Assembly: GCA_003265895.1 (NCBI GenBank)
Contig: QFBS01000001.1
Location: forward strand, 1-64,000
DNA from: Candidatus Marinamargulisbacteria bacterium SCGC AG-410-N11
GTDB lineage: Bacteria; Margulisbacteria; Marinamargulisbacteria; GCA-2716485; AG-410-N11
Reading direction: 5' to 3'
DNA length: 64,000 nt
Part shown: positions 13,171 through 52,425 of the stretch, in pieces
How the letters are laid out: every line of letters starts with the position of its first letter
Numbering within the stretch: the stretch's first letter is position 1
Position numbers and translations under genes: made by a program
The notes under the pieces: generated by a model
Told to the model about the DNA's origin: nothing
Databases searched by the model: none
Seen by the model: the letters and a program-made list of their open reading frames with translations, nothing else

Positions 13171-14296
13171 ATTCAATAAACTGATTAATAACGGCAACAG
13201 TATAATCAAGTTCTGATTGAGTTAGCTCCGGAAAAACCGGGATAGAAACAACTTCTTTAGCTGCTTTTTCAGATACTGGTAAATTACCTTCTTGATAACC
13301 TAAGTGTGAAAAGCAACCTTGCAAATGTAAAGGTACCGGATAATAAATGGCATGACCAATGGTATACTCTTGAAGAACGTCCATTAGTTGGTCGCGTTTT
13401 TCATGTTGAATGGTGTATTGATTATAAATCATATAACTTCCATCACTAACAACCGGTGTCTTAATGTCTTGATGTAAGTGCTGATTGTAGTAAGTGGCAT
13501 TTTTAATTCGTCCTTCATGTTGATCATTCAAGAAAGGTAGTTTAGCTGATACAACAGCGGCTTGGATAGCATCTAATCTAAAATTTCCGCCAATGATATG
13601 ATGATAATATTTAGGTTTAGATCCATGTGCTCGAAGTACCTGACATTTTTCGTAAAGGTCATCACTGTTAGTCGTAACAACACCGCCATCTCCACAACAA
13701 CCTAGATTTTTACTTGGAAAAAAAGAAAAACATCCTAAATCACCAATACTCCCTGCAGCTTGCAGTGGCTTACCATTATACGTTGTTTTAGCACCAATGG
13801 CTTGAGCTGCGTCTTCAATGACATGTAAGTTATGTTTTTTTGCAATAGCCATTATTTGGTTCATATCAGCAAGTTGTCCAAATAAATGAACAGGCATAAT
13901 AACTTTAGTTTTTGATGTGATCTTAGCTTCAATTAAGTTGGGATCAATATTATAGGTTAAGGGATCGATATCAACAAAAACAGGAACAGCTCCAAGACGA
14001 GAGATACTACCAGCCGTTGCAAAAAAAGTAAATGGCGTTGTAATAATTTCATCGCCAGGTTGTATATCTAATGCCATAAGCGAAATAATTAATGCGTCGG
14101 TACCAGATGAAACGCCAATAGCATGTTTAGTCCCACAATAGGCTGCAATATCTGTTTCTAGTTGTGTTACTTTCGGACCATTTATAAAGATCTTAGAGTT
14201 AAAAACATCTTGAATAGAAGACATAACGGTTGACTCAATATCTTGATATTGTCTTTGCAAGTCTAATAATGGTACGTTAATTTTAGTATTAATCAT
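13163..14296 (-). CDS. wbpE: DegT/DnrJ/EryC1 aminotransferase, WbpE-like
   Basis: Predicted to aminate the 3-keto group of UDP-GlcNAc-derived 3-keto-uronate (glutamate donor), giving UDP-GlcNAc(3NH2)A. The 377-residue protein has the DegT family marks: GTDALIISLMAL, EIITTPFTFFATAGSISRLG, VIEDAAQAIGA with the PLP aspartate, and the PLP lysine in FSFFPSKNLGCCGDGG. It lies 12 bp downstream of the fused WbpB-WbpD gene on the same strand and has AAAGGAG before the ATG. Glutamate consumption makes 2-oxoglutarate, the electron acceptor of WbpB, so the two enzymes form the known coupled pair. Its 3' end overlaps lhgO by 8 bp in convergent orientation. Confidence 0.85.
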   Translation of the reverse strand: MINTKINVPLLDLQRQYQDIESTVMSSIQDVFNSKIFINGPKVTQLETDIAAYCGTKHAIGVSSGTDALIISLMALDIQPGDEIITTPFTFFATAGSISRLGAVPVFVDIDPLTYNIDPNLIEAKITSKTKVIMPVHLFGQLADMNQIMAIAKKHNLHVIEDAAQAIGAKTTYNGKPLQAAGSIGDLGCFSFFPSKNLGCCGDGGVVTTNSDDLYEKCQVLRAHGSKPKYYHHIIGGNFRLDAIQAAVVSAKLPFLNDQHEGRIKNATYYNQHLHQDIKTPVVSDGSYMIYNQYTIQHEKRDQLMDVLQEYTIGHAIYYPVPLHLQGCFSHLGYQEGNLPVSEKAAKEVVSIPVFPELTQSELDYTVAVINQFIESN

Positions 14297-14308
14297 AAAA
14301 AATCTCCT

Positions 14309-15922
14309 TTAATGAGCGACCTGTGAGTTAATGGGTAGTTCAGATACTATATTTTTGGTAATCTGATACCATTTATTACATTTTTCACAAAATGCTTTAT
14401 TAGATTTTGAAAAATCTAGTTTTGTTCCTGCTTCAGAAATCCAACCCACAATATTTCCGGGATTACCAACAACAATGGCATAATCGGGTACATCTTTTGT
14501 AATAACAGCACCTGCTCCAATTAAACAGTGCTTACCTAATGTTACACCACATACGATAGTAGCATTAGCACCAATAGAAGCTCCTTCTTTAACGTGTGTT
14601 TTGATATAAAACTTTGATTCCGCTTGCGGATATTTACTACGAGGAATATTAATATTTGTAAATACCATTGAAGGACCACAAAACACATAATCATCTAATT
14701 GAACACCTTCATAAATAGACACATTATTTTGAATTTTACAGTTATTTCCAATCGTAACATTAGGCCCAATATTAACATTTTGACCTAAAATACAATCATT
14801 ACCTATGGTAGCGTTCTTTTGAATATTACTAAAGTTCCATACCTTAGTATGTTGTCCAATTTGAGCGGTTGGATCAACTGTAGCAGAGGTATGAATAAAG
14901 GTGCTTTTGTTTTTAAGTTTAGATTTGAAATGATCTGACTGTGCAGCCGAAATGGACACAGAAGAATGATTTAAACACGCATCCGCACGTTCTAAAATCT
15001 TTAAAACATCATATCCCTTTTCGCCATTAATAAGGGTATTCTTTTCATTTCCTTTAATACATTCAATAAAATGATTCAATTCATTTTTTAAAGGAGGCTC
15101 CTTAGGATAGTCGATTATTTGAGTAGCGCCATCTCGTTTAACGGGTTCTCCATTAATAAAGTCGATCCCTTTTTCATAAAATAATAGTTGTTTATGATCA
15201 CTAGAGTCTTCATAAGATAACATACCTTTTGATCCAATAATAACCAATCGATGTTCTTTAAAGGGGTGCAGCCAACTAACAAAAATATGACCCACGATAT
15301 TATTAGGGTAGTGAAGCATCGTCATTGTAGTATCTTGTATTTTAGGTTGTAAAAAAGAACCACCTTGAGAAATAACGTTAGTCGGTAAATTTTGAGCAAG
15401 GTAATCAAAAATAGAAACGTCATGGGGTGCAAAACTCCACAAACTATTCAAATGAGTTCGAACGGTTCCTAAGTTAAGTCGGTTACTATACATGTATTGT
15501 AATTTTCCTATTTTACCAGACTCTATAAACGATTTTATTTTTCGAATAGCAGGATGAAACAACAGTAAATGACCCGTCATTAAGATTACTTGTTGGTTGT
15601 TAGCCAGCTCGGTTAACTCTTTAGCTTTAGAAGATTGGAGTGTAATGGGTTTTTCAACAAGTAAGTGTTTCTTTTTTAATAATAACGCTTTTGCTAATTC
15701 AAAATGTGTTTTGGCGGGCGTCGCAATTACATAGGCGTCGTATTGATCGGCTCCTAATTCAGAGATCGAACTAAACGTAGAGACATTAGGGTAAAGCGAT
15801 TTAAACTGAGAAAGAGTCTTTTTGTTAGTATCTATGATACCACTCAAATGACCCATCTCAGATAATGTTCGGATATGATTTTTACCCCAACGACCACTGC
15901 CTACAACACATATTTTTACCAT
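14309..15922 (-). CDS. Fused Gfo/Idh oxidoreductase and left-handed beta-helix acetyltransferase (WbpB-WbpD fusion)
   Basis: Two enzymes of UDP-2,3-diacetamido uronic acid synthesis in one 537-residue chain. Residues 1 to about 325 are a Gfo/Idh/MocA oxidoreductase (GSGRWGKNHIRTL at 8-20 for NAD, the LLVEKPITL motif near 92) resembling WbpB, which oxidises C3 of UDP-GlcNAcA. From about residue 342 the chain becomes hexapeptide repeats of a WbpD-like N-acetyltransferase (IGNDCILGQNVNIG, IGANATIVCG, IGAGAVITKDVP), ending in a CxxC pair (FCEKCNKWY). In Pseudomonas aeruginosa and Bordetella these are separate genes. The fusion order B-D skips the intermediate WbpE step, which is encoded immediately downstream. 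The N-terminal start is at an ATG only about 74 bp after metK ends. Confidence 0.88.
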   Translation of the reverse strand: MVKICVVGSGRWGKNHIRTLSEMGHLSGIIDTNKKTLSQFKSLYPNVSTFSSISELGADQYDAYVIATPAKTHFELAKALLLKKKHLLVEKPITLQSSKAKELTELANNQQVILMTGHLLLFHPAIRKIKSFIESGKIGKLQYMYSNRLNLGTVRTHLNSLWSFAPHDVSIFDYLAQNLPTNVISQGGSFLQPKIQDTTMTMLHYPNNIVGHIFVSWLHPFKEHRLVIIGSKGMLSYEDSSDHKQLLFYEKGIDFINGEPVKRDGATQIIDYPKEPPLKNELNHFIECIKGNEKNTLINGEKGYDVLKILERADACLNHSSVSISAAQSDHFKSKLKNKSTFIHTSATVDPTAQIGQHTKVWNFSNIQKNATIGNDCILGQNVNIGPNVTIGNNCKIQNNVSIYEGVQLDDYVFCGPSMVFTNINIPRSKYPQAESKFYIKTHVKEGASIGANATIVCGVTLGKHCLIGAGAVITKDVPDYAIVVGNPGNIVGWISEAGTKLDFSKSNKAFCEKCNKWYQITKNIVSELPINSQVAH

Positions 15923-39462: not shown

Positions 39463-40383
39463 CTAATACCGGCTAAAAGCCCCCCCCCATTGGCTCAAAA
39501 GTAGCAATGTATTAATCAAGGCATGGTTTGACTGCTTACGATCAAAATTCATAAATAGTTTAGGAGTATAGGACCCAATAAATGCCATTCCTAATGTAAT
39601 CACAACTGTAACAAACTGCAACGCCGTCGAATAATAAGCTAGATATTCAGAACTAAAATAATGTTGAATAAAAAATCGATCTAAACTAAATATAAACTTA
39701 AACAGATAGTTGCAAAACAATAAAACAAATCCAACAGAAAGTATACGTTTAATAATAAGAGAATCTACAGAAAATTTAGTTAAAGAAAAATTAACATATA
39801 GCTTTTTTCGTAACAAATAAAACAAACCTATACAAATAATTAATATAATCAAGCTACCTAATGAATATCCAATGTAATATCCTTTTATTGATGAAATCAA
39901 ACAAAAAATAGCTAATAGACTAAAGAATAACAAAGAACGAATCACATTAAAGACACCACTATATTGAAGAATATTTTGACCTTTAAAAATAAACGTTATT
40001 AATTGAACAAAAGACGACATAATAAAAAAAGGGATAAAACAATAGAAAGCAAACGATTGAAACATTGTATCTGAAAAAAAATAACCCATCATGAAAAAAA
40101 AAATAGAAATAATAAAGGTAAATAGCACCGTTAGCCAAAAAATCGTAATAAAAAAACTTTCATTTTGTTTAGTATCTTGACCCACTGTATAAGTAGGCCC
40201 TAGCCGTTCTAAAGAAGTTCTTAAAAAAGCTAAAGGAATTTCAACAATAATATACACTGCGGACACAAAGACAAACACCCCTATAACCTCTGGAGGAACA
40301 ATTCGTTTTAAATAAATTCCAATAGAAAAGGAAAAGAAAAAGTTCCAAAAATGAGACCCCGCATATATAAGATTACTTCTCAT
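39463..40383 (-). CDS. wzx: Wzx-like polysaccharide flippase, truncated at a G9 tract
   Basis: Translocates undecaprenyl-linked repeat units across the inner membrane. The open frame has about nine hydrophobic helices of the MATE/Wzx type (RSNLIYAGSHFWNFFFSF at the start). The ATG at 40383 is preferred to an upstream in-frame ATG at 40464 because it overlaps the upstream gene by only 11 bp and begins the first helix. The frame ends after LSQWGGAFSRY, immediately past a run of nine G on the coding strand. Removing one G (or adding two) joins it to the frame at 38991-39443 and gives about 463 residues, the normal Wzx length. The gene as written is OFF; a phase-variable tract or a homopolymer sequencing error explain this equally well. 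Confidence 0.75.
   Translation of the reverse strand: MRSNLIYAGSHFWNFFFSFSIGIYLKRIVPPEVIGVFVFVSAVYIIVEIPLAFLRTSLERLGPTYTVGQDTKQNESFFITIFWLTVLFTFIISIFFFMMGYFFSDTMFQSFAFYCFIPFFIMSSFVQLITFIFKGQNILQYSGVFNVIRSLLFFSLLAIFCLISSIKGYYIGYSLGSLIILIICIGLFYLLRKKLYVNFSLTKFSVDSLIIKRILSVGFVLLFCNYLFKFIFSLDRFFIQHYFSSEYLAYYSTALQFVTVVITLGMAFIGSYTPKLFMNFDRKQSNHALINTLLLLSQWGGAFSRY
39480..39488 (-). repeat. G9 homopolymer in wzx (frame-breaking)
   Basis: Nine C on the plus strand (G9 on the coding strand). Eight G keep the wzx frame open, nine close it after 4 codons. G/C homopolymers of eight or more are very rare in DNA as AT-rich as this. Confidence 0.9.
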
Positions 40384-41893
40384 GAATATATGTTTTCCAA
40401 TGTTGAAAATAAGAATTCCCATCATTGATAAGACAATAAGAAATGTAATCAAGATTTTGATCATTTAGTATAGTTTTGTTAGACAAATGTAACCTCACCT
40501 TACATCGCTCGTGTTCTGACAAAAATGAAATTGGAACAATTTTGTAATTAAGTAAATAATTAACAAATTTATACAAATTATCTTTATTTTCTTTCTGAAA
40601 CTCTTTAATAACCTGTGTATTTTCAATCAAATCAAAATACTCTTGCTTATCTTTAAATTCATAACAGATTTTCTTATTATGATACGGAGATAATCCCCCT
40701 GAAAATAGAGGGATATCATTATATAATAATTCCGTCCCAATAGTCCCATTATAAACAAATGCACCATTTAAATAAGGAAACAACTCATAACTTGAAAAAG
40801 GGTTCGATGAATCAACAAATAAGATGTTGTCCTGTTTTTTAAATAGTTTATTAAAAATATCCATCGCCCCAACATTGGATTTCATCCATCTATATTCAGC
40901 AGGATGAACACGAATAATAAGTAACTTGTTCGTATTATTAACAAAATAATCAATAGTTTGAACAAACCAGTCATAATTAGACTGAAACAATATATCACAA
41001 CCAATATAACTATTATCCCAAAAAACATTAGGAAAAATTGCAAACACATTATGACGATAAGCATCTATTTTATTATTCAATTGAATAATAAATTCCTCGT
41101 TTCTATTATTTTTACTTACCCCTTTTAATATGTTTTTTAAATCCATAGATTTACCTTCAAATCTAGACTTTAAATATGTCCTACAAAAAGAGTAGCTTTC
41201 ATCTAAATCTATTTGATGATTAAATTGATTAAAAAAATTATTATCATAAATCCCTGATGCAACAATATTATTTTTACAAAAAACAACCCCATTAGTCTTA
41301 AAGCCACCAAAAGAATAAGTTATCGACATTTTTTTTTGATTCAAAAAAAACTGATAAAAAGGTCCCCAAGTAGAATATATACCATGCGAAGTACATATCC
41401 GAGCAGGATTTTCTTTTTGAAATAAAGATTTTGCTATAAAAATAGAAACCAATGAATTTTGAACAAACATCTTTAAAACATCTGAGTAGTCTCTATGTTC
41501 TAGAGCAAACTTATCTATGGATCTATAATACCTATTAATAGAAGAGTTTATATAAGGATAAAGATCAATAGAATCCATTTTATATAAATCAGATTCTATC
41601 ATATTTTTTGAGATATTCAGGATCCTCTTAAAATCTTCTACATCAACAAACTCACTATAAAATCTTATATATGATAACCTTCTTAAAAAAAAAGTCGATA
41701 CTCGCTTCCTTATTGCTTCATCAAAACAAGTAATGATACCATCAACTTGAACGGTATCATGATGCAACAATACATTATCATCAACAAGCACAATCGCATG
41801 TTTACCCTGTTTCCTTAAATTAAGACACATCATAGACTCTGTAAACATGATATCCAAAGAATGCCCACGTACTAAATTAAATACACAAAACAC
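40373..41893 (-). CDS. Capsule-type glycosyltransferase (possible nonulosonic acid transferase)
   Basis: A 506-residue protein with the pattern of capsule polysaccharide transferases: NLVRGHSLDIMFTESMMCLN near the start, HGIYSTWGPFYQF near 167, IIRVHPAEYRW near 325, and YNGTIGTELLYNDIPLFSGG near 380. GTG at 41893 opens this frame but has no ribosome site, and the frame stays open upstream to 42025, directly after the ptmA stop, reading LRHVKRLASLIKFIFK and onward, which looks like a real N-terminus. A T10 tract at 42018-42009 lies there; with T11 or T8 an ATG at 42045 or 42042 inside ptmA would be in frame. As sequenced, the start is doubtful. Last gene but one of the nonulosonic acid operon, so it may be that transferase. 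Confidence 0.7.
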   Translation of the reverse strand: MFCVFNLVRGHSLDIMFTESMMCLNLRKQGKHAIVLVDDNVLLHHDTVQVDGIITCFDEAIRKRVSTFFLRRLSYIRFYSEFVDVEDFKRILNISKNMIESDLYKMDSIDLYPYINSSINRYYRSIDKFALEHRDYSDVLKMFVQNSLVSIFIAKSLFQKENPARICTSHGIYSTWGPFYQFFLNQKKMSITYSFGGFKTNGVVFCKNNIVASGIYDNNFFNQFNHQIDLDESYSFCRTYLKSRFEGKSMDLKNILKGVSKNNRNEEFIIQLNNKIDAYRHNVFAIFPNVFWDNSYIGCDILFQSNYDWFVQTIDYFVNNTNKLLIIRVHPAEYRWMKSNVGAMDIFNKLFKKQDNILFVDSSNPFSSYELFPYLNGAFVYNGTIGTELLYNDIPLFSGGLSPYHNKKICYEFKDKQEYFDLIENTQVIKEFQKENKDNLYKFVNYLLNYKIVPISFLSEHERCKVRLHLSNKTILNDQNLDYISYCLINDGNSYFQHWKTYIHEK

Positions 41894-42025: not shown

Positions 42026-42781
42026 CTATAAACTCCACCCATCATCAACAATAATATTCTGGCCATTTACAAATTCACTTAATTCAGAAAGCAAGTAAAT
42101 AACTGTACCTGTAATATCTTTAGTATTGAGCATACCTTTATTGTTACAATCTTGTCTATAATTTTTTAAAAATAACTCTGGTTGTTTATCTAATAGCCCA
42201 CCTAAACTTACTGCGTTTACTCTAATATTATTTCCTTTATAATATTTTGATAGATAACGGACCATGTTAATTATTCCAGCTTTTATTGCACTATATTCAA
42301 TAGGAGATGTCATGTCTGTATTTTCGTAATGGTTAAATTTAGGTGCCTGTAAACCTTGAATAGATGCTATGTGTATAAGATTTCCTTTTTTTTGCGTTTT
42401 AAATAATTCAAGTATTTGTTGTGAAAATAATATAGCACCACCTAATTGATTAGATAAGTCTTCTTTTAAGTATTTTTCAGATAGATTTTCAAATTTAGTT
42501 CCCCATTGCTTTGATCTGGGGTAAGCAGAATGAATAGATGCATCAATAAATTTGAATTTCTTTGATACTAACTTAAAAAATGATTTTATTGAGTCTAAAG
42601 ATGATGTGTCTAGTTTGAAATAATAAGCTTTCGAAGGGTTTTCTTTTTCAATTTCAATTCCAATTTTTTCATTAATATCACCAATAATAACAGTTCCATT
42701 TTGTTTAATTATTTCTTGAGCCAAAGCTTTTCCCAATAAGCCACATCCACCTGTTATAATAATTGTTTTATTTTGAAGCAT
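42026..42781 (-). CDS. ptmA: Short-chain dehydrogenase, PtmA-like
   Basis: A 251-residue SDR protein: NAD motif TGGCGLLGKALAQ at 10-22, IHIASIQG with the catalytic serine, the YSAIKAGIINMVRYL segment with the YxxxK pair near 182, and RVNAVSLGG near 205. It overlaps the upstream cytidylyltransferase gene by 14 bp. PtmA homologues accompany PtmE, PtmF and LegF in Campylobacter flagellin legionaminic acid loci, where they serve precursor synthesis; the exact reaction is not settled. Gene order here (neuA, then ptmA) matches that theme. Confidence 0.8.
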   Translation of the reverse strand: MLQNKTIIITGGCGLLGKALAQEIIKQNGTVIIGDINEKIGIEIEKENPSKAYYFKLDTSSLDSIKSFFKLVSKKFKFIDASIHSAYPRSKQWGTKFENLSEKYLKEDLSNQLGGAILFSQQILELFKTQKKGNLIHIASIQGLQAPKFNHYENTDMTSPIEYSAIKAGIINMVRYLSKYYKGNNIRVNAVSLGGLLDKQPELFLKNYRQDCNNKGMLNTKDITGTVIYLLSELSEFVNGQNIIVDDGWSL

Positions 42782-43466
42782 TTAATTTTTCCTTTAATAT
42801 AAATTCAGCAAAACTAAAATCTATTTCATCGTCGATATCAAGAGATCTTAATTTTGGAATTAAAACTCCTTTGACTCGGCCTTCAAATACTGAGTTAAAT
42901 TTTAAAATTGCTTGCGGACGAGAAGCATATGCCACTGTAGTTAAGTCATATACTTTTGGACAATCTTGTCGTCTTGTCAAATCACTTTTTATTACTGTAG
43001 ATAAATAATCGTTTGTAGACTTTACCATATTAAAGTAAGGACTTCGATTTGCTTCAGTCATGGTAACTACAAAATCTGTACTAAGTGTTAATTTATTTAA
43101 TACATTTGTTATGTCTATGTCATTTCTAAATGGTGAAGTTGCTGGTAGTGAAATAAATCTATCAAATTTTATTTTTTGTTTTTCTAAATATTCTATAGCA
43201 TGTTTCCAAGATAAATATTCTGCAGAAGTATCAGTGGCTAATTCTGGAGGGCGACTTATAATATGAATCTGATCATTTTTATATGTTTCTGCAAGTGTCA
43301 TAATTTCTTTATCATCAGTTGATATAAATATTTTAGAAATTAAAGAGTTTTCTAAAGCACTATCTATTGAATAGCAAATTAGTGGTTTGTTATTGAGTAG
43401 CTTGATATTTTTTTTCTTTAACCCTTTAGAACCACTTCTAGCAAAAATAAATGCAAATGTTTTCAT
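42768..43466 (-). CDS. CMP-nonulosonate cytidylyltransferase (LegF/PtmB/NeuA-like)
   Basis: Activates the free nonulosonic acid with CTP. The 232-residue protein begins with the family motif FIFARSGSKGLKKKNIK (residues 5-21), followed by FISTDDKEI, ISLPATSPFRND near 105 and LDIDDEIDFSFAE near the C-terminus. The NeuA-type nucleotide-binding residues are intact. It lies in the leftward operon between a PtmF-like oxidoreductase and ptmA. The substrate is most likely CMP-legionaminic acid or a formyl analogue rather than sialic acid, because LegB and LegC homologues are present upstream. Confidence 0.87.
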   Translation of the reverse strand: MKTFAFIFARSGSKGLKKKNIKLLNNKPLICYSIDSALENSLISKIFISTDDKEIMTLAETYKNDQIHIISRPPELATDTSAEYLSWKHAIEYLEKQKIKFDRFISLPATSPFRNDIDITNVLNKLTLSTDFVVTMTEANRSPYFNMVKSTNDYLSTVIKSDLTRRQDCPKVYDLTTVAYASRPQAILKFNSVFEGRVKGVLIPKLRSLDIDDEIDFSFAEFILKEKLNASK

Positions 43467-43476
43467 AAAGTATATT

Positions 43477-44445
43477 TTAAGAATTAATTTGGTTTTTGTA
43501 AATTTTATTTATCATTTTAAGCACATCTATTGCTGATGATAGGGTGTTTTCTTTTACTAAATTATTATTTATTGCTTCAAAAAAATTTTCTAATTGTTTT
43601 TCAAATATAATGTTTCTATCAAATTTATTTCTAGATGTTATAGGCTTTTTTTTGTTTTCATACCAAACAACTTGCTGGTTGATTAAATCTAACATTAAAA
43701 CACCTTTGCAGGTTAAAACTTCACAGATTCTTGAATTTTTGCGTGAACAAAAATTCATGAATAATGAAATTGGATAATTTTTATTGCTAGTCATTAGTAC
43801 TCTTACCGAGTCTTCAGTGTCAATATCTAGAGTATTTGAATTATAAATAATACTTGCCATGTTTTTTGGTATGCCAAAAAGCCATTGTATGTAGTCAATT
43901 TCATGACTAAGTTCAAGTATTACACCACCGCCTAACGATTTTTTTGCACTTACAGTATTTTTATAATTTTGATCGGGTCTCCAATTAGGTAAATATGAAC
44001 TTGCTGTAATAGAAACATCTAAAATTGTTCCAATATCATATGTATCTAAATACTGTTTAAATTTTATTAAATTGGGGTCATTTCTCAGAACATATCCTAC
44101 CTTACATATTAAATTATTTTTTTTTATTATTTTCTTTAACTTATCTATGTTTTCTAGATTATGAGATAGTGGTTTTTCAATTAATAAATGTATATTGTGT
44201 GATGCTAAAAAAATGGCTTGTTCAATATGAAATGTTGCAGGTGATGCAATTATTGCAGCTTGAATATTAAGTTTGATTACATCTTCAAGAGAATATACAA
44301 TTTTACAATTAATATTTTTATCTTCTTTTTTTTTATTAGATCTAACAATGATTGGTTCTATATTAGGGAATTTATTTTTTATAACTGTAAAATGTCGTTG
44401 CCCTATACTTCCAAACCCTATGATCGCAATTTTTTTAATACTCAT
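43477..44445 (-). CDS. Gfo/Idh/MocA oxidoreductase, PtmF-like
   Basis: A 322-residue NAD(P) oxidoreductase: GFGSIGQRHF at 10-19, ALIIASPATFH-like segment (here AAIIASPATFHIEQA), HLLIEKPLSHN near 93 and GGGVILELSHEIDYIQWLFG near 170, the last with the family histidine. Position between a PtmE-like nucleotidyltransferase (11-bp spacers) and a CMP-sugar synthetase suggests the PtmF role in supplying an amino-sugar precursor for GDP-linked legionaminic acid synthesis. The actual substrate is unproven. Confidence 0.75.
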   Translation of the reverse strand: MSIKKIAIIGFGSIGQRHFTVIKNKFPNIEPIIVRSNKKKEDKNINCKIVYSLEDVIKLNIQAAIIASPATFHIEQAIFLASHNIHLLIEKPLSHNLENIDKLKKIIKKNNLICKVGYVLRNDPNLIKFKQYLDTYDIGTILDVSITASSYLPNWRPDQNYKNTVSAKKSLGGGVILELSHEIDYIQWLFGIPKNMASIIYNSNTLDIDTEDSVRVLMTSNKNYPISLFMNFCSRKNSRICEVLTCKGVLMLDLINQQVVWYENKKKPITSRNKFDRNIIFEKQLENFFEAINNNLVKENTLSSAIDVLKMINKIYKNQINS

Positions 44446-45501
44446 TTATTTAATTAAATCTAATGCCCTTTCATATTCTTTCCATTGCCCAAAATCGATA
44501 AATTCTTTTTCATTAATAAAAAAACAATGGACAGGCAAATTATTTTCAATCAGTTTCTCGATTAAATGAGTCATATGAAATACTTTATCCGTTTCTATAT
44601 AATCGAGAACTTTTTTATTTGCTATATAAACCCCTGTATTAATAGGCATACTTAATTCTGGCTTTTCTTCGATAGACGTTATAGCGCCACCATTTTTATA
44701 GTTTATTTTTCCATATGGAATTTGGTGATGTTGAATTGAACAAACGACTGTAAGTAATGTCTTTTTTTCTTGATGTTGATGAATAATATCAGATAAGTTT
44801 GTTTTAGCAATGCAATCACAATTTGAAATTATAAATTCATTAGGTAATTTATCTTCTAAAAGCTTAATACTTCCAGCTGTTCCCATAAAAAAAGGCTCGA
44901 TTGCAAAATTAATAGAATAGCTTTTATCTAAACTATCAAAATAAGAGATCATTAAGTTAGATTTGTAATTTAATGTTAGAAAATAGTTATCTATCCCATA
45001 TTCCGTAAAATAATCAATAACATGATTAATCATTGGCTTTCCGTTTAATGGAATTAGTGGTTTAGGAAATACATCGGAAATAGGTTTCATCCGGGTTCCT
45101 TTTCCGCCGCCCATGATTACTACTGGTAAAGATAGATTTTTTTTTGTTTTCTGTGAGATATTGTGTTCATTATAATAGCTGTAATATGAAACAATTTTTT
45201 TATTATTTAAAATAGGTAAGCCTATGATTTTATTTTCTTTACACATTTCAATTGCTTTTTCTTTTGTAAACTCATCTTCATTTAAATAGATAAAGCTTTT
45301 ATTAAAAATGCCTTCTATAGATGTTTCTAAAGAAGCATCTTTTAGTAAAGCTCTTCTTATATCTCCATCTGTTAATGTACCTAAAAAGTCAGTATTTTCA
45401 TTGACAACTAAAATTATTTTCTCAGCAGTAGAGTCCAGAGTTTTTAACGCTTGTTTAATAGTTGTATTGTTTTTAATAAGGTTTTGGATATTGTTTTTCA
45501 T
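44446..45501 (-). CDS. ptmE: CBS-domain nucleotidyltransferase (PtmE-like, GlcN-1-P guanylyltransferase)
   Basis: Predicted to make GDP-glucosamine from glucosamine 1-phosphate and GTP, the step that starts the GDP-linked legionaminic acid route in Campylobacter. Two CBS motifs occupy the first ~115 residues (LGTLTDGDIRRALL; KENKIIGLPILNNKKIVS), then a nucleotidyltransferase domain: VVIMGGGKGTRMKPISDVFPKPLIP, FFMGTAGSIKLL, ISNCDCIA. The start at 45501 is chosen because it forms an ATGA overlap with the PIG-L gene and follows AAAGGAAAT; an upstream in-frame ATG at 45555 would overlap by 54 bp more. About 351 residues. Confidence 0.83.
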   Translation of the reverse strand: MKNNIQNLIKNNTTIKQALKTLDSTAEKIILVVNENTDFLGTLTDGDIRRALLKDASLETSIEGIFNKSFIYLNEDEFTKEKAIEMCKENKIIGLPILNNKKIVSYYSYYNEHNISQKTKKNLSLPVVIMGGGKGTRMKPISDVFPKPLIPLNGKPMINHVIDYFTEYGIDNYFLTLNYKSNLMISYFDSLDKSYSINFAIEPFFMGTAGSIKLLEDKLPNEFIISNCDCIAKTNLSDIIHQHQEKKTLLTVVCSIQHHQIPYGKINYKNGGAITSIEEKPELSMPINTGVYIANKKVLDYIETDKVFHMTHLIEKLIENNLPVHCFFINEKEFIDFGQWKEYERALDLIK

Positions 45502-46169
45502 GAATTTATTTCCTTTAATAACATAAAGCTTTCTGCATAATTTACTCCGGCACAAGCACCTCTAACTTTTGCTAATGCTTTGATTGTTTCAATACTTCTA
45601 GGAAAAGGATGTGGCGAAACTTCACTTTCATAAATAGCCATCGCGTTACATTTTTGCTCTATATAGTTACTAATATCAACAAATACATTCGGTACAAAAG
45701 CGTTTTCTTTTGTAGCTAAAGCAAAATCTGTTTCACTTAATGTTTCCATCATTAATATTTTCTTTATAAATGGATAGCGAAATACTTTTGTACAAGCATA
45801 AATTGCATCAAAGCAAATTCTATGATCTGAATGTACATCACTCTTAAATGGCAAATAAATAACAGTTGGTTTTACTTTGTTGATTATAGCTGAAATTCTT
45901 GAAATTAATTTGTTCATCGAGTATTGGTCACATTCTGTCGTCTTTAAATTAAGTTGATGAACAGAGTCAAATGAATATAAATTAGAGATAGTTATAATTT
46001 CTTTATTTCTTTTTTCTATGACTTCATCTGAGTATCCTTGATCTTTAAAAAGGTGCGTTGCAATTAACCAGTGAATTTTATCTCCATCATTTTTATGTTT
46101 TAATAAAGTACCTCCGCAACCTAATGTTTCATCATCGGGGTGGATAGCGAATACTAAAATATTTTTCAT
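45498..46169 (-). CDS. PIG-L/LmbE deacetylase
   Basis: Zinc-dependent N-deacetylase of the PIG-L family, 223 residues. The metal-binding motif HPDDE is at 10-14 and HSDH at 113-116, both intact. Such enzymes remove acetyl from GlcNAc-type sugars. It is coupled to a formyltransferase gene (4-bp overlap at 46166-46169) and to ptmE. I infer that it clears an N-acetyl group, either on a precursor or on the finished nonulosonic acid, so that the adjoining formyltransferase can put on a formyl group. The substrate is unproven. Confidence 0.8.
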   Translation of the reverse strand: MKNILVFAIHPDDETLGCGGTLLKHKNDGDKIHWLIATHLFKDQGYSDEVIEKRNKEIITISNLYSFDSVHQLNLKTTECDQYSMNKLISRISAIINKVKPTVIYLPFKSDVHSDHRICFDAIYACTKVFRYPFIKKILMMETLSETDFALATKENAFVPNVFVDISNYIEQKCNAMAIYESEVSPHPFPRSIETIKALAKVRGACAGVNYAESFMLLKEINS

Positions 46170-47056
46170 AAATAATCTCCTATTTTGGGAAGCGTTTCAA
46201 ATTCATGTTTTAAAATTTCTATAGAATGTGTACCTGATTTTACAATAAATGTATTATTTTTTGAATTTACATCTAAAACTTTTCCTGGCTCAATATTTTT
46301 TTTGTTATTTTTAACCTCTTTAACTTTCCAAATTTTGATTTCTTTATTTAAAAGAACTATATGAGCACCGACATATGGTGTAGTTAGGCCTCTAACTAAA
46401 TTATATATAATATCTGAATGCATCCGAAAGTCTATTTGGCCATCTCTCATTCCACGTTTTCGCCAATAATTTGATTTTGAATGGTTTTGAGGAATTCTAT
46501 CAAAAGTTTTATTTTTTAATTTTGGTAAAAAATATGTTATTTGATTTAATGCTGTTTGGGTCACTTTCTCATATAATGAATCTGCATTGTCACTATATAT
46601 AATGTGAATTTTTTCCTGAGATAAAATATCGCCAGAATCAGCCCCTTGGTCCATAAAAAAGAAAGTAGATGCAGTTTCTTTTAAACCTAGAACTAACGCC
46701 CATATTAGTGGATGCCTGCCTCTATTTTGTGGTAAAGCGGCAGGGTGATATCCTATGATACCTATTTTCGGAATATCTAAAAGATCTTTTTTGATTATTT
46801 CAGACCATCCAAAACAAAAAATAATATCTGGAGATTTTTCTTTAACCCAATTTAAAATATAAGAGTCATTGACTGATGTATTTGAAAAAATAAACGGGAT
46901 ATTATTTTTTTTACATAAAGGCGTTAGATCCTGAAAGTCTGCGTTAAACAGCGATTCTTTTTTTGTAATTACACCAACAATGTTTGCATTTAGCTTACAT
47001 AATAATGCTAGCTTTTTGTAAGAAGATTTCACTGTGCCAATAAAAATTATTTTCAT
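46166..47056 (-). CDS. Formyltransferase family protein, atypical active site
   Basis: A 296-residue protein of the methionyl-tRNA/sugar N-formyltransferase family. The Rossmann-like N-terminal domain ends in the motif GYHPAALPQNRGRHP near 102-116; the conserved His is at 104 and the Asp at 140 (QGADSGDIL), but the usual catalytic Asn of the N-x-H-D triad is Gly at 102. Folate binding is expected from the QNRGRHP segment. An OB-like C-terminal domain (RGLTTPYVGAHIV, then EIKIWKVKEV) follows. It lies between neuC and PIG-L with 4-bp overlaps on both sides. The missing Asn may mean a changed substrate or mechanism, or a distinct subfamily. Confidence 0.75.
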   Translation of the reverse strand: MKIIFIGTVKSSYKKLALLCKLNANIVGVITKKESLFNADFQDLTPLCKKNNIPFIFSNTSVNDSYILNWVKEKSPDIIFCFGWSEIIKKDLLDIPKIGIIGYHPAALPQNRGRHPLIWALVLGLKETASTFFFMDQGADSGDILSQEKIHIIYSDNADSLYEKVTQTALNQITYFLPKLKNKTFDRIPQNHSKSNYWRKRGMRDGQIDFRMHSDIIYNLVRGLTTPYVGAHIVLLNKEIKIWKVKEVKNNKKNIEPGKVLDVNSKNNTFIVKSGTHSIEILKHEFETLPKIGDYL

Positions 47057-48216
47057 TTCAAATTATAAAATTTCTTTTTTATTATATTTTTTGAATTAAT
47101 ATTTATTTTTGAAATCAAGTTTATAATTTCGTCACATGTATTTGGTTTTTCATATGGATTCGATACGGATTGTAAATTTTTTTGAAATTCTTTCGAGTAA
47201 AGTTTTTGAATCGCAGTGTCGATATCTTTTTCTGTGGGGATACATTGTATAACACTTTTTGCTTGAATTCGTCCTTTTTGTCTATCTCCTATGTTAATAG
47301 TACCTATTTTAAATGAGGGAACTTCTATTATACCGCTAGAACTATTACCTATTACCCCATCAATAAACTGCAAACAACTAAAATAGTTTACTTGTCCAAG
47401 AGAAAATGACGCATAAGAATTTTTATTTTTACTTGTGAATGAGTCTATCATTTCGTTTATAACTCTTCCATTAGTATCAGCGTTGCTTTTTGTAAAAATT
47501 AATTGCGTTGATTTTAATTTAGATAAAGAGTTTAGTAAATTTTTAAATTGATTTTTTGCAGTATTATTTTCTAAAGTGACAGGATGAAATGTTATAAGAA
47601 TGTTGTTTTTATTAAATAAAAAGCCTAGCTCTTTTTCTATTTGTTGCTTTGACAACAAACTTAAATGTTTTATATTGTCTACACCTAAACTACCAACATT
47701 AAAAACGCGTTGAGGATTTTCACCAAGTTGTACAACTCTTTTTTTATAATTTTCGGTTGATGTAAAATGATAATGACTCATTTTTGTTATAGAATGTCTA
47801 ATGGGTTCGTCTATTAATCCTTCAGTAGCTTCTCCCCCATGAAGATGAATAATTGGAATTCTTGAAATCATTGCAGCAGATGCCGCAGAAAAAATTTCAA
47901 AACGATCTCCTAATAAAACGATTATATCTGGTTTTAATTCTTCAAATGCTTCTGCAAATGAAATTTGAGCTAATCCCATTGACTTTGAAATGCCAACAGA
48001 TGTATCTGAAGAAAGTAAAATTTCAATTTTTTTATCAATTTTTAAATCATGAGACTCAATTTCTTTGTAGGTTAAGCCAAATTCGGTAGATAAATGCATA
48101 CCCGTAGCAATTAATTGAAGATCTAAAGATTTATCAGAGTTAATTTTACTAATTAATCGAGATAAAATACCAAATTCAGCTCTAGTTCCTGTTACAACAC
48201 AAATCTTTTTGTTCAA
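47053..48216 (-). CDS. Hydrolysing UDP/GDP-HexNAc 2-epimerase (NeuC/LegG-like)
   Basis: Epimerises C2 of a diacylated amino sugar nucleotide and hydrolyses the nucleotide, giving the 6-carbon sugar for condensation with PEP. The 387-residue protein starts with CVVTGTRAEFGIL (5-17), has IVLLGDRFEIFSAASAAMISRIPIIHLHGGE (in part) near 90, HYHFTSTENYKKR, ITFHPVTLENNT near 204, GNSSSGIIEVP near 290. These match NeuC/LegG rather than the non-hydrolysing WecB. It overlaps neuB by 4 bp and the formyltransferase by 4 bp. Expected substrate is the 2,4-diamino-2,4,6-trideoxyhexose from the LegB/LegC pathway. Confidence 0.87.
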   Translation of the reverse strand: MNKKICVVTGTRAEFGILSRLISKINSDKSLDLQLIATGMHLSTEFGLTYKEIESHDLKIDKKIEILLSSDTSVGISKSMGLAQISFAEAFEELKPDIIVLLGDRFEIFSAASAAMISRIPIIHLHGGEATEGLIDEPIRHSITKMSHYHFTSTENYKKRVVQLGENPQRVFNVGSLGVDNIKHLSLLSKQQIEKELGFLFNKNNILITFHPVTLENNTAKNQFKNLLNSLSKLKSTQLIFTKSNADTNGRVINEMIDSFTSKNKNSYASFSLGQVNYFSCLQFIDGVIGNSSSGIIEVPSFKIGTINIGDRQKGRIQAKSVIQCIPTEKDIDTAIQKLYSKEFQKNLQSVSNPYEKPNTCDEIINLISKININSKNIIKKKFYNLK

Positions 48217-49226
48217 ATTAAATTACCTTCTTCATAGTTTTTTTCGGCTTTTTTTCCAAGGATATTATCCCATTCTTTAGGAGATATCCCATTTGCTGGT
48301 CTTTTACAAATTAAATTATGGATAGTGAAAGTTTCTCCTTTTTGAATATTTTCTTTAGCTAAAATACTTTTTCTTACAATTTCAATATTTTTTTGTTCAC
48401 TAAAAGATGGTTCTTTTACACCATTTCCTTTAGCCTTTTCCACAATTCTGATTTGATCGACCATAGCTTTTAATTCTTGTGGATCTAACGACGCTTTATG
48501 ATCCGGGCCAAGCAATGATTTATCAAGAGTGAAATGCTTCTCTATGATAGTTGCTCCCATAGCAACAGCTGCAATTGGAATCGTTATCCCAGGTGTATGA
48601 TCGGAATAACCAACAGGAACTTCAAATTTATTTTGTATTGTTGCCATAGCGTTTAAATTTACATCTTCAAAAGGACATGGGTACTCTGTTGTGCAATGTA
48701 GTAATGACAAGTTTGATTTATCTAGACCCGAATTAAGCAAAGTTGTAACTCCAAATTCGATATCATCCATTGTACACATTCCCGTAGAAAGTATAGTCGG
48801 TTTATTGATAGCCGCAATTTTTCTTAAATAAGGAACATGTAAGATTTCACCAGATGGAATTTTTAAAATAGGTAAATTTAAACGCTCTAAATAAGTTACA
48901 CTATCACAATCAAAAGGAGATGATAAAAACAAAATCTCTTTTTGTTTGCAGTAATTTATTAATTCCATATGCATTTCATGAGTTAATTCTAATTTTTTTA
49001 GCATGTCAAATTGAGATTCATCTGAATTGGTAGTTTCTTTTTGATAAGTTGCTTTTTTAGCATTTTTTGTGGCTAATGTTTCTGATTTAAAAGTTTGAAA
49101 TTTCACAGCTTCAGCACCTGCGCTTTTTGCAACATCTACTAATTGTTTGGCTAAAGACAATTCTCCATTGTGGTTTACTCCTGCTTCAGCAATAATAAAT
49201 GTTTTATCCAATTTCAAATCTATCAC
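48213..49226 (-). CDS. Nonulosonic acid synthase (NeuB/LegI-like)
   Basis: Condenses the 2,4-diacylamido-trideoxy-mannose-type sugar with PEP to the nine-carbon acid. The 337-residue protein has the NeuB family sequence: IIAEAGVNHNGELSLAKQL (11-29), AVKFQTFKSE, LFLSSPFDCDSV, LKIPSGEI, ILSTGM, LLHCTTEYPCP, GYSDHTPG, ATIIEKHFTLD, and a C-terminal antifreeze-like SAF domain (NIQKGETFTIHNLICKRP). The frame opens with GTG at 49226, overlapping the second formyltransferase by 23 bp; a TTG at 49217 is an alternative start. Confidence 0.9.
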   Translation of the reverse strand: MIDLKLDKTFIIAEAGVNHNGELSLAKQLVDVAKSAGAEAVKFQTFKSETLATKNAKKATYQKETTNSDESQFDMLKKLELTHEMHMELINYCKQKEILFLSSPFDCDSVTYLERLNLPILKIPSGEILHVPYLRKIAAINKPTILSTGMCTMDDIEFGVTTLLNSGLDKSNLSLLHCTTEYPCPFEDVNLNAMATIQNKFEVPVGYSDHTPGITIPIAAVAMGATIIEKHFTLDKSLLGPDHKASLDPQELKAMVDQIRIVEKAKGNGVKEPSFSEQKNIEIVRKSILAKENIQKGETFTIHNLICKRPANGISPKEWDNILGKKAEKNYEEGNLI

Positions 49227-50100
49227 CTACTTTAAATTTTCCTACATATTCATATTCAACAACTTTGACAAAAGTATCGGCTGTTTTAACTAAAAATCCA
49301 GACTCATCTTTAAATAAAATTGCTCCAATAATTCCTTTGTACACAGTGGAATTATTTATTTCTAGTACTTTATTGATTTTCATTTCTTTATTATTTAAAA
49401 AAGCTCTTGATTGTGGCCCAGGTGAGCAAATAGCCCTTACAAAATTATATAGTTGTCGACTAGTTTGATTCCAGTTAATATTTTCATCGCCAATAACTCT
49501 GGTTGAGCAATAAGAACCAATAGGGTCAATTTCATTTTGCTTTTTTATTGTAACTTTTCCTTGTTTTAATAAAGTTAAAGATTCAAAAAGGATATTTGCA
49601 CATTCAACATGCGCAATTTTAAGTAATGATGCATAAGTATCATTATTAGATATACTAAAACATTTTTGAAGAATTATATCGCCTGTGTCTATTCCTTCAT
49701 CAATAAAATGAACTGTAATTCCAAAATCCTTTTCATCATTTATTAAGACCCAGTTTAATATGTTTCTTCCTCGATAAAATGGCAGTTTACCTGCATGACA
49801 ATTTATACATTTCAATGGAGGGAGGTTTATTATTCTTTTTTTGAAAATTTGATTAAAGGACATTGAAACAAACAAATCACAATTAAATATTTTTATTTTA
49901 TTAATAAATTCATCAGAATTAATATCTTTATGTTTTAAGTAAGGTATATTATATTCTTCAGAAAATTGCTTTAAAATTTGATCATTTGTATCATACCTTA
50001 CACAGATAAATTTAATTGTTAAGTCTTTATCTTTAATAATTTTTTGAAAAGCATTATGACTCCACGGCCCATCTGCAAAATAGCCTATGCTTAATTTCAT
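49204..50100 (-). CDS. Sugar N-formyltransferase with intact N-H-D site
   Basis: A 298-residue formyltransferase. The catalytic triad of the family is complete: Asn100, His102 (CINCHAGKLPFYRGRN) and Asp138 (DEGIDTGDI). Its place between the LegC-like aminotransferase (4-bp overlap) and NeuB is where other loci have the N-acetyltransferase LegH. I infer that it formylates the C4 amino group made by LegC, so that the product is an N7-formyl nonulosonic acid (hexose C4 becomes C7). This depends on 10-formyl-tetrahydrofolate. A C-terminal domain (EMKINKVLEI, GAILFKDESGF) resembles the OB part. Confidence 0.8.
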   Translation of the reverse strand: MKLSIGYFADGPWSHNAFQKIIKDKDLTIKFICVRYDTNDQILKQFSEEYNIPYLKHKDINSDEFINKIKIFNCDLFVSMSFNQIFKKRIINLPPLKCINCHAGKLPFYRGRNILNWVLINDEKDFGITVHFIDEGIDTGDIILQKCFSISNNDTYASLLKIAHVECANILFESLTLLKQGKVTIKKQNEIDPIGSYCSTRVIGDENINWNQTSRQLYNFVRAICSPGPQSRAFLNNKEMKINKVLEINNSTVYKGIIGAILFKDESGFLVKTADTFVKVVEYEYVGKFKVGDRFEIG

Positions 50101-51248
50101 ATTATCACCGAACTAGGAATATTCACTAGAGTATCTGAAGCAATAGTTGAATTTGATAAATCATCACAATAAGCTTTTTTGTACATTGATAGTGTATTCA
50201 TTAAACACCAACATGGCCTAGTCATTACATTAAGGTTATTGGACATATTTAAAAATGTATCACGGTTACTTTTATTTTTAAATGTCAGAGTATTCAACCA
50301 ATAATTTGATTTACAAGATTCAGGCTCATCAAAAAATAAAAAACTGTTACTTATTAACTTGTTTTTATATGTTTGAGCTAACATTCTTTTAGATTTTATA
50401 AAGCCATCTAAAGTTTCCATTTGAGCACAACCTAAAGCAGCATTAAGATTCGGCAATCGATAATTATAGCCTATTTCATCATGAACATAGTCCCACTTAT
50501 GAGGAGTTTTAGCCGTTGTTGTAATATGCTTAGCTTTTTTAGCTAATTCTTTATCGTTGGTGACAATCATTCCCCCCCCACCAGACGTAATGGTTTTATT
50601 GCCATTAAAACTAAATGTGCCAAATAAACCAAATGTACCCGTATGCTGGTTTTTGTAAGTACTTCCTAAAGATTCAGCGGCATCTTCAATTACGGGGATG
50701 TCAAACTTATCGCATAATGAAATTATTTGGTCAATTTTTGTAGGATGACCAAACGTATGCATCGGCAAGCACGCAGAGATAATTCGTTTTGTATGAATAT
50801 TGATTAAGCCTTTGGTTGTTTTTTTTGTGGAATGTTTTAAGAAATATTCTAATTTTTCTGGGCAGAGCCCAAGTGTTTCTTTATTTATATCTACAAACGT
50901 TGGGAATGCGTTACAATAAGAAACAGCATTACTTGTGGCTACAAACGTTAGAGGTTGCGTAATTACTTCTGTATTGTCAGAAACACCAGATAGTAATAAC
51001 GAGATGTGTATTGCTGCGGTGCCGTTAACTGTTGCAATAGCGTATTTTGCCCCTGTGTAATCAGCGACCATTTTTTCAAATTGATCAACATACTTGCCTA
51101 CAGAAGATACAAAAGTTGAATCAATACAATCAAGAACATATTTTTTCTCATTTCCATTAAAACGTGGTTCATGTAGCGGAATAAATTCCTCTGTTTTATA
51201 TTGGTCTTTAATTATTTTAATAATATTTTCAAATTCACATTTTTGCAT
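50097..51248 (-). CDS. legC: LegC-like PLP aminotransferase
   Basis: Transfers an amino group to C4 of the 4-keto-6-deoxy HexNAc nucleotide. The 383-residue DegT-family protein has EPRFNGNEKKYVLDCIDSTFVSSVG (in part), VNGTAAIHISL, VIEDAAESLGS with the PLP aspartate and the PLP lysine in FGTFSFNGNKTITSGGGG. This agrees with the LegC family. A G8 run encodes the glycine stretch right after the catalytic lysine (50572-50579). It overlaps legB by 14 bp and the formyltransferase by 4 bp. Confidence 0.88.
   Translation of the reverse strand: MQKCEFENIIKIIKDQYKTEEFIPLHEPRFNGNEKKYVLDCIDSTFVSSVGKYVDQFEKMVADYTGAKYAIATVNGTAAIHISLLLSGVSDNTEVITQPLTFVATSNAVSYCNAFPTFVDINKETLGLCPEKLEYFLKHSTKKTTKGLINIHTKRIISACLPMHTFGHPTKIDQIISLCDKFDIPVIEDAAESLGSTYKNQHTGTFGLFGTFSFNGNKTITSGGGGMIVTNDKELAKKAKHITTTAKTPHKWDYVHDEIGYNYRLPNLNAALGCAQMETLDGFIKSKRMLAQTYKNKLISNSFLFFDEPESCKSNYWLNTLTFKNKSNRDTFLNMSNNLNVMTRPCWCLMNTLSMYKKAYCDDLSNSTIASDTLVNIPSSVII
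50572..50579 (-). repeat. G8 homopolymer in legC
   Basis: Eight C on the plus strand (G8 on the coding strand) encode part of the conserved glycine stretch after the PLP lysine. The frame is intact as written; a one-base change would truncate the enzyme. Confidence 0.85.
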
Positions 51249-52425
51249 CTAAATATTTTCCTGTTTCTTTATGTTGAAAATCTGGGATTAATGTAAAGAA
51301 TTCATTTAAAATATCTTGTTTCGACCATGAAGTGCTTTTTTTGAGAGATTGAATTGTTTTTTCAAAGTGGTTTAATTTCTCAGAATCAAATTCAAGTTTA
51401 TTTTTAATAATTCCTAAATTTGTAAATCTCTCCATATCTAATAGTTCTTGGTCAGTGAAAAATTCTTCAAAATCTTTTTCACCTGTGGTATCACTTTTAG
51501 TAAATAAACATGGCCATTTTTTTTGTTGAGGCAAAGAGTGAATAAGTTCACGAGCTTCATTTTCTGATTCACATAAAAACGGCTCATACCCTAAGTTTCT
51601 TAGATATTTAACAGCAATATCAGCGAATGAAATAAGATGAAGTTCTTCACTAAGTTTAGGAAAGAAGATGTCTCTGTTTTCGCCAAAAACACAAGACATC
51701 AAGCATAGTTCTCCACTTTCTTGTGGTGTAACAAAATAGCGTTTAATATCGTTTGGAGCAACAATCGGTTGTCGTTTTTGGATCCGTTGGTTAAACCCAT
51801 GAAGTAATGAACCATCGCTGAAGGCTACATTTGCAAATCGAGCCATCGATATAGAAATACGATTAGATTGTTGCATGGCAAACATTTCCATAATGCGTTT
51901 GCTTGCACCCATCATATTTACTGGGTTTGCAGCTTTATCTGTAGATACACAAAAATATTTTTTTGTTTTATTTTCAATGGATTGTTGAATCGTTTTGTTT
52001 GTATTAAAAATATTAGTGTTAATTAATCTCATTAAGGTAAAAGGATCTTTTTCACTTCTAACATGTTTTAATGCAGATAAATTGAGGACGTAATCATATT
52101 TTCCAAAGTTGGAAATGAAAGCATCATATTCTAATGATCCAATATCTAAAGAAAACGTTTTAAAAACTCCATCAATGTACCCATAGCTACTTCTAATATC
52201 ACGAACTAATTCAACCATATTATTTTCAGAAATATCTACAACATGAAGTGTTTTAGGATTTCGTTTGAAAATTTCTTTTGTAACAGATTGCCCTATTGAG
52301 CCAGCGCCTCCAATAACAAGAAAAGAAGAACTAGATATAATGTCTTTTAATAAATATTCATAATTCGAAATATCTTCTGAAAATAATTCTTTTGAACGAT
52401 TGATTAATTTGATATCAAAAAGCAT
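51235..52425 (-). CDS. legB: Nucleotide-sugar 4,6-dehydratase (LegB/CapD-like, soluble)
   Basis: Makes the 4-keto-6-deoxy HexNAc nucleotide for the nonulosonic acid route. The 396-residue protein has the NAD motif IGGAGSIGQSVT near 38-49, STDKAANPVNMMGASKR near 159, and the PNDIKRYFVTPQESGEL segment. It lacks the membrane part of the paralogue at 10075 and has about 35 extra N-terminal residues. Its ATG shares one base with the Wzz stop (TAATG). Context (legC, neuC, neuB) supports the LegB role; whether the nucleotide is UDP or GDP is not shown, although ptmE points to GDP. Confidence 0.85.
   Translation of the reverse strand: MLFDIKLINRSKELFSEDISNYEYLLKDIISSSSFLVIGGAGSIGQSVTKEIFKRNPKTLHVVDISENNMVELVRDIRSSYGYIDGVFKTFSLDIGSLEYDAFISNFGKYDYVLNLSALKHVRSEKDPFTLMRLINTNIFNTNKTIQQSIENKTKKYFCVSTDKAANPVNMMGASKRIMEMFAMQQSNRISISMARFANVAFSDGSLLHGFNQRIQKRQPIVAPNDIKRYFVTPQESGELCLMSCVFGENRDIFFPKLSEELHLISFADIAVKYLRNLGYEPFLCESENEARELIHSLPQQKKWPCLFTKSDTTGEKDFEEFFTDQELLDMERFTNLGIIKNKLEFDSEKLNHFEKTIQSLKKSTSWSKQDILNEFFTLIPDFQHKETGKYLDAKM

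Follow-up and report, generated by a model that had tools for sequence, protein, structure and literature searches.

A predicted operon for 5,7-di-N-formyl legionaminic acid synthesis in Candidatus Marinamargulisbacteria bacterium SCGC AG-410-N11

The initial annotation of a stretch of 64,000 nucleotides from Candidatus Marinamargulisbacteria bacterium SCGC AG-410-N11 (positions 1 to 64,000 of contig QFBS01000001.1, GenBank assembly GCA_003265895.1; here termed the window) described an operon for a nonulosonic acid that carries formyl instead of acetyl groups. Based on family assignments, gene neighborhoods, and comparison to a chemically characterized archaeal system, this operon probably directs the synthesis of cytidine monophosphate (CMP)-activated 5,7-di-N-formyl legionaminic acid (Leg), or its 8-epimer, destined for a surface glycan. 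The operon consists of eleven genes on the minus strand, extending from position 52425 to 42026 in the order LegB, LegC, FT1, LegI, LegG, FT2, PIG-L, PtmE, PtmF, LegF, and PtmA, with coordinates agreeing with those annotated initially. Most neighboring genes overlap by 4–23 bases; the overlap between PIG-L and PtmE is also 4 bases, provided that PtmE starts at the internal ATG at position 45501. Because of these overlaps, we read the eleven genes as a single operon. Protein families were assigned by profile scores relative to curated cut-offs (Pfam, TIGR, and NF models).

A formyltransferase in the position of LegH

The gene product at the position of the N-acetyltransferase LegH, FT1 (49204–50100), comprises both PF00551 and PF02911 and a complete Asn-His-Asp site (N100-x-H102, D138), as had been annotated, and is predicted to formylate N4 of the precursor, the later N7. 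Two clusters from genomes of the same phylum, L100 and L102, contain LegB, LegC, a 196-residue hexapeptide protein, LegI, and LegG in this order. LegC, LegI, and LegG of both clusters are 54–56% identical to their counterparts in the window (LegC 55–56%). The hexapeptide protein of L100 was assigned to NeuD by TIGR03570 with 173.8 bits (cut-off 160.8), and FT1 is located exactly where both clusters harbor this acetyltransferase. Since NeuD occupies exactly the place of FT1 in clusters of the same phylum, a swap of acetyl for formyl at N7 by FT1 is the simplest reading of the gene order and is well supported, in line with the N7-formyl group that the initial annotation had predicted. The acetyltransferase is retained in all of three GDP-Leg-type plasmid clusters (L113, Sphingomonadaceae OTU29; L115, Rhizobium WL3; L119, Sulfitobacter W027).

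The operon itself clearly lacks a LegH/NeuD-type acetyltransferase, as previously stated. A search for such an enzyme elsewhere, which the initial annotation had suggested, yielded no NeuD (TIGR03570) above the cut-off in the assembled genome, which is 55.7% complete; because of this incompleteness, and unlike the absence from the operon, absence from the genome is weak evidence. One GNAT is encoded on contig C8 of the assembly. Hexapeptide matches below the cut-off comprised a gamma-carbonic-anhydrase-like protein, a serine-acetyltransferase-like protein, a dehydratase, and a dehydrogenase/acetyltransferase fusion at 14309–15922 (names according to sequence reading). The region of the window that includes this fusion (13163–15922) encodes a DegT aminotransferase beside the fused Gfo/Idh/MocA dehydrogenase-hexapeptide acetyltransferase, and probably belongs to a 2,3-diacetamido sugar pathway.

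The PIG-L deacetylase and the GxH formyltransferases

PIG-L (45498–46169), the only member of its family found in the assembled genome, scored 79.8 bits with PF02585 (cut-off 28.2), aligned to solved LmbE/PIG-L structures, and has the metal motifs HPDD (residues 10–13) and HSDH (HxxH; residues 113–116). It is predicted to take off the acetyl group derived from N-acetylglucosamine (GlcNAc). A function as bacillithiol deacetylase was rejected, as the scores were below the BshB cut-offs (BshB1, TIGR04001: 76.6 compared to 182.5). Throughout the phylum, 11 of 19 PIG-L genes had a NeuB-family gene no more than 12 kb away, compared to 0.36 calculated from gene counts and the sizes of the genomes for randomly placed genes; chance juxtaposition was rejected by this count. 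In several other lineages, PIG-L adjoins neuC or neuB.

The second formyltransferase, FT2 (46166–47056), overlaps both PIG-L and LegG by 4 bases and is predicted to formylate N2, the later N5, after deacetylation. The initial annotation had already paired this formyltransferase with PIG-L. FT2 retains both Formyl_trans domains (PF00551, PF02911) along with H104 and D140, but Gly102, which had gone unmentioned, replaces the catalytic Asn, and the Asn-His-Asp site is thus incomplete. A motif comparison took in 42 relatives, among which an Azospirillum sequence gave no motif match. Gly instead of Asn was found in 23 of the 42 compared sequences, including FT2, and Asn is present in ArnA, Fmt, FT1, and the second formyltransferases of haloarchaea. 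In a maximum-likelihood tree, the Gly-containing set, here termed GxH, was monophyletic and occupied one side of a single branch with a support of 95/93. Because Gly is common to the whole clade and the clade is set off by a single branch, Gly is, judged by alignment and tree, the mark of an old subfamily and not of decay. Accordingly, we rejected FT2 being a decayed gene: Gly occurs in 23 of 23 clade members, and His and Asp are intact in FT2. Likewise, FT2 was rejected as housekeeping methionyl-tRNA formyltransferase, as it scored 142 compared to the Fmt cut-off of 201.5 and is located outside the Fmt clade; in addition, an Fmt-type gene is present on contig C12 of the same genome. The structure model of FT2 was weak (mean predicted local distance difference test score, pLDDT, of 65), yet the fold search still retrieved Fmt and ArnA. 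GxH formyltransferases are usually encoded near PIG-L. A scan of viral contigs gave no matches, and among phage records there were only remote formyltransferase matches.

A link between this gene pair and a characterized product is provided by Halorubrum sp. PV6, which bears 5-N-formyl-legionaminic acid on its S-layer N-glycan; the mass step published for the residue is 302 Da (PMC6137143). This mass fits one formyl group, at N5, and one acetyl group. Within the cluster HrrPV6_1046–1053, HrrPV6_1050 was named as possible formyltransferase and HrrPV6_1051 as NeuD, while HrrPV6_1052 and a deacetylase go unmentioned (PMC6137143). Genome G087 contains the published PV6 S-layer peptide (24 of 24 residues) and, about 58 kb from it, a Leg cluster, L054. 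On one strand, this cluster comprises genes for LegC (1140 bp), LegB (1026 bp), LegF (723 bp), LegG (1164 bp), a GxH formyltransferase (954 bp), and NeuD (630 bp), agreeing in order and length with the PV6 genes, for which lengths of 1139, 1025, 722, 1163, 953, and 629 were published (PMC6137143). PIG-L (10839–11507) and LegI are located on the opposite strand, with PIG-L between NeuD and LegI. By all signs, judged from this correspondence, HrrPV6_1052 is PIG-L.

Hence, a GxH formyltransferase and PIG-L occur among the Leg genes of both L054 and the window, which also share LegB, LegC, LegF, LegG, and LegI. By analogy, the PV6 locus, in which a GxH formyltransferase, PIG-L, and NeuD each occur once, supports assigning the PIG-L/GxH pair to N5-formyl and NeuD to N7-acetyl, and thereby lends support to the sequence of deacetylation and N5-formylation that the initial annotation had put forward. 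In contrast to PV6, where NeuD is kept and N7-acetyl is predicted, the window has FT1, and formyl groups would thus be expected at both N5 and N7.

Pathway class, proposed route, and alternatives

The scores of LegC (50097–51248; TIGR04181, 537.4 bits, cut-off 420), LegI (NeuB-family synthase, 48213–49226; TIGR03569, 504.1 bits, cut-off 399.65), and LegG (NeuC-family hydrolyzing 2-epimerase, 47053–48216; TIGR03568, 489.8 bits, cut-off 235.9) were all higher than the cut-offs set for the Leg/Neu-type models. The PseI model gave 319.4 for LegI, below its cut-off of 340.25, and the PseC model also remained below its cut-off. This pattern indicates a legionaminic-type rather than a pseudaminic-type gene set. 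All of the Leg and Ptm counterparts listed in the initial annotation are present, the LegB counterpart (51235–52425; PF02719) being a soluble, PglF/CapD-like NDP-GlcNAc 4,6-dehydratase (NDP, nucleoside diphosphate) outside the canonical LegB family found in L113, L115, and L119. Its best solved match, over the full length, was 3pvz (669.8 bits), which we take to be a Vibrio fischeri protein, followed by Campylobacter jejuni WlaL/PglF. The dehydratase has Met where the catalytic Tyr is usual (STDKAANPVNMMGASKR), a replacement also known from PglF and in keeping with a dehydratase of the bacillosamine type that retains the configuration. V. fischeri has been reported to produce 8-epi-Leg; the product of the operon may be Leg or its 8-epimer. 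A dehydratase homologue of 66% identity occurs in Rhodobacteraceae S2214 alongside LegC, a sugar transferase, and a GNAT acetyltransferase.

From these assignments we infer the catalytic steps, the order of PIG-L and FT2, 10-formyl-tetrahydrofolate as donor, and the stereochemistry. LegB and LegC would convert NDP-GlcNAc, probably the GDP form provided by PtmE, into NDP-4-amino-4,6-dideoxy-GlcNAc, and FT1 would formylate the 4-amine, the future N7, in place of acetylation by LegH/NeuD. PIG-L would remove the 2-N-acetyl group and FT2 would formylate the freed amine, the future N5, both most likely acting on the hexose prior to the LegI reaction. LegG would release the nucleotide and epimerize C2, LegI would add a three-carbon unit, and LegF would add CMP. 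The timing is suggested by marine alphaproteobacterial exopolysaccharide cassettes (L041, L042, L123) in which a sugar transferase, a GxH formyltransferase, and PIG-L, often followed by an aminotransferase, occur without NeuB or NeuC, pointing to action of the pair on a 4-amino hexose; a related set is present in L037.

Several observations weigh against a di-N-formyl product. FT1 is located on a long, weakly placed branch of the tree, and, given the completeness of the genome, LegH may lie elsewhere. The classical Asn is missing from FT2 and its entire clade, and activity or donor could differ; moreover, some GxH genes have no PIG-L nearby (L032, L057, L059, L038, and FT3 of the window genome). 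Conversely, PIG-L also occurs in nonulosonic clusters without any formyltransferase (L036, L103, L104) and, therefore, does not imply formyl by itself. The nominal P of 2e-15 for the PIG-L/NeuB neighborhood overstates its significance, as glycan genes cluster in general.

In our view it is unlikely that only N7 is formylated, by FT1, while N5 keeps its acetyl group and PIG-L and FT2 serve to modify a different 4-amino sugar within this glycan. Such a role would be consistent with the cassettes lacking NeuB and NeuC and with Azospirillum plasmid AZO_p6, where a formyltransferase lies beside neuB with no annotated PIG-L. However, the pair is positioned between LegG and PtmE with overlapping genes, PIG-L adjoins neuC or neuB in several lineages, and N5 carries the formyl group in the PV6 product (PMC6137143). 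That PIG-L frees N5 while FT2 attaches some group that is not formyl, or functions as deformylase or another one-carbon enzyme, resulting for example in a different N5 substituent next to N7-formyl, appears quite improbable. The missing Asn in all 23 GxH members examined and the pairing of PIG-L with an ATP-grasp protein (L036) or WbqC-like/FemX-like proteins (L103, L104) would be in accordance with such a function, but His, Asp, and both domains are retained in FT2, its fold search led to Fmt and ArnA, and the PV6 cluster possesses a GxH formyltransferase as its only formyltransferase although N5-formyl was reported. Finally, the operon might produce ordinary di-N-acetyl Leg with an acetyltransferase encoded in the 44% of the genome missing from the assembly and with FT1, FT2, and PIG-L acting on other sugars. 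We regard this as very improbable: the incomplete genome leaves room for it, yet FT1 fills the acetyltransferase slot among overlapping genes and NeuD was not detected above the cut-off in the assembled part.

Single N-formylation of nonulosonic acids is already known; the predicted combination of formyl groups at both nitrogens is new, as is the association of PIG-L with GxH formyltransferases, which would also complete the archaeal pathway, as it accounts for the deacetylation needed to form the only archaeal 5-N-formyl legionaminic acid described in the literature searched. This literature, which did not include subscription carbohydrate journals, yielded neither a 5,7-di-N-formyl nonulosonic acid nor any account of PIG-L acting in nonulosonic pathways. 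If correct, the assignment allows the N-acyl pattern of these sialic-acid-like sugars to be read from DNA by a simple rule: N7 would be set by whichever gene occupies the LegH slot (NeuD for acetyl, a formyltransferase for formyl), and N5 by PIG-L with its partner. GxH formyltransferases, devoid of the classical Asn, are thereby marked as a target for enzymology.

From its distribution, PIG-L looks like a general step of N5-acetyl removal with exchangeable partners. On plasmid pA of Ensifer adhaerens (L036:10001–13209), a PIG-L of 56% identity is located between LegG and LegI; unlike the window, this cluster has no formyltransferase, is led by a NeuD-like protein, and continues with ATP-grasp and HAD genes, whose products may link a different acid, such as an amino acid, to N5. 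Two further nonulosonic clusters (L103:3544–13134 and L104:6453–16800) combine PIG-L with WbqC-like, FemX-like, and methyltransferase genes and two DegT aminotransferases, the WbqC-like and FemX-like names being sequence readings and the FemX match weak. A comprehensive claim, about which we are somewhat more doubtful than confident, is that PIG-L and a variable partner (GxH formyltransferase, ATP-grasp, or FemX/WbqC-like) form a general, unrecognized module replacing the N5-acetyl group in bacteria and archaea, that GxH enzymes are an uncharacterized Asn-free subfamily, and that the window encodes the first 5,7-di-N-formyl legionaminic-type acid to be predicted.

Remaining genes and related systems

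The other four genes of the operon encode PtmE (44446–45501 with the likely start at 45501; PF00483 and PF00571), a CBS and nucleotidyltransferase protein of the GDP-sugar branch with homologues in canonical Leg clusters; PtmF (43477–44445; PF01408), a Gfo/Idh/MocA oxidoreductase 34–36% identical to PtmF of L105 and L106; the cytidylyltransferase LegF (42768–43466; PF02348), 49% identical to LegF of Ensifer pA; and the SDR oxidoreductase (short-chain dehydrogenase/reductase) PtmA (42026–42781). PtmA scored 336 bits with NF006619 (cut-off 255) and 251 with the PtmA model NF050062, below the cut-off of 350. Downstream of the operon, a 506-residue protein (40373–41893) with no Pfam match is a candidate transferase for the sugar; it is weakly similar to open frames in the nonulosonic loci L094 and L061.

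The C. jejuni GDP-linked legionaminic pathway, reportedly described by Schoenhofen in 2009, and the plasmid clusters L113, L115, and L119 share with the window LegB, LegC, LegG, LegI, and LegF along with PtmE, and L113 and L115 also PtmF and PtmA. In contrast to the window, these systems acetylate by means of NeuD/LegH, and L115 additionally has amidotransferase genes. Formyl instead of acetyl at N7 of a nonulosonic acid is also found in the PseJ system, as 7-formamido pseudaminic acid is known, for example, from Pseudoalteromonas distincta (PMC3210612). However, that system belongs to the pseudaminic series, keeps the N5 acetyl group, and needs no deacetylase.

In haloarchaea, a plasmid cluster of Halorussus caseinilyticus (NZ_CP119810.1, L026) resembles the window in containing neuC, PIG-L, neuB, GxH and NxH formyltransferases, PtmF-like and PtmA-like genes, and LegF. 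It differs in being archaeal and in gene order, and LegG, PIG-L, FT2, and LegI are 31–44% identical. PIG-L together with both formyltransferase types occurs with neuC and neuB in L055, L056, and L058, and with a NeuB-like (LegI-like) gene in L062 and L063.

Further formyltransferases were observed in other settings. FT3, a third formyltransferase of the GxH type, is encoded on contig C1 of the window genome about 4.9 kb past the end of the window (L029:5852–6640), next to an epimerase, a DegT aminotransferase, and an asparagine-synthase-like gene, with PIG-L absent nearby. In L027 (7974–11895) and L038 (8001–10596), a GxH formyltransferase is clustered with ATP-grasp and HAD-hydrolase genes, directly following it in L038, of the types that accompany PIG-L in Ensifer. 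On plasmid AZO_p6 of Azospirillum lipoferum 4B, a formyltransferase (L124:20063–20755) is located beside neuB along with NeuC and a 39% identical dehydratase, and this cluster is predicted to yield a mono-N-formyl acid.

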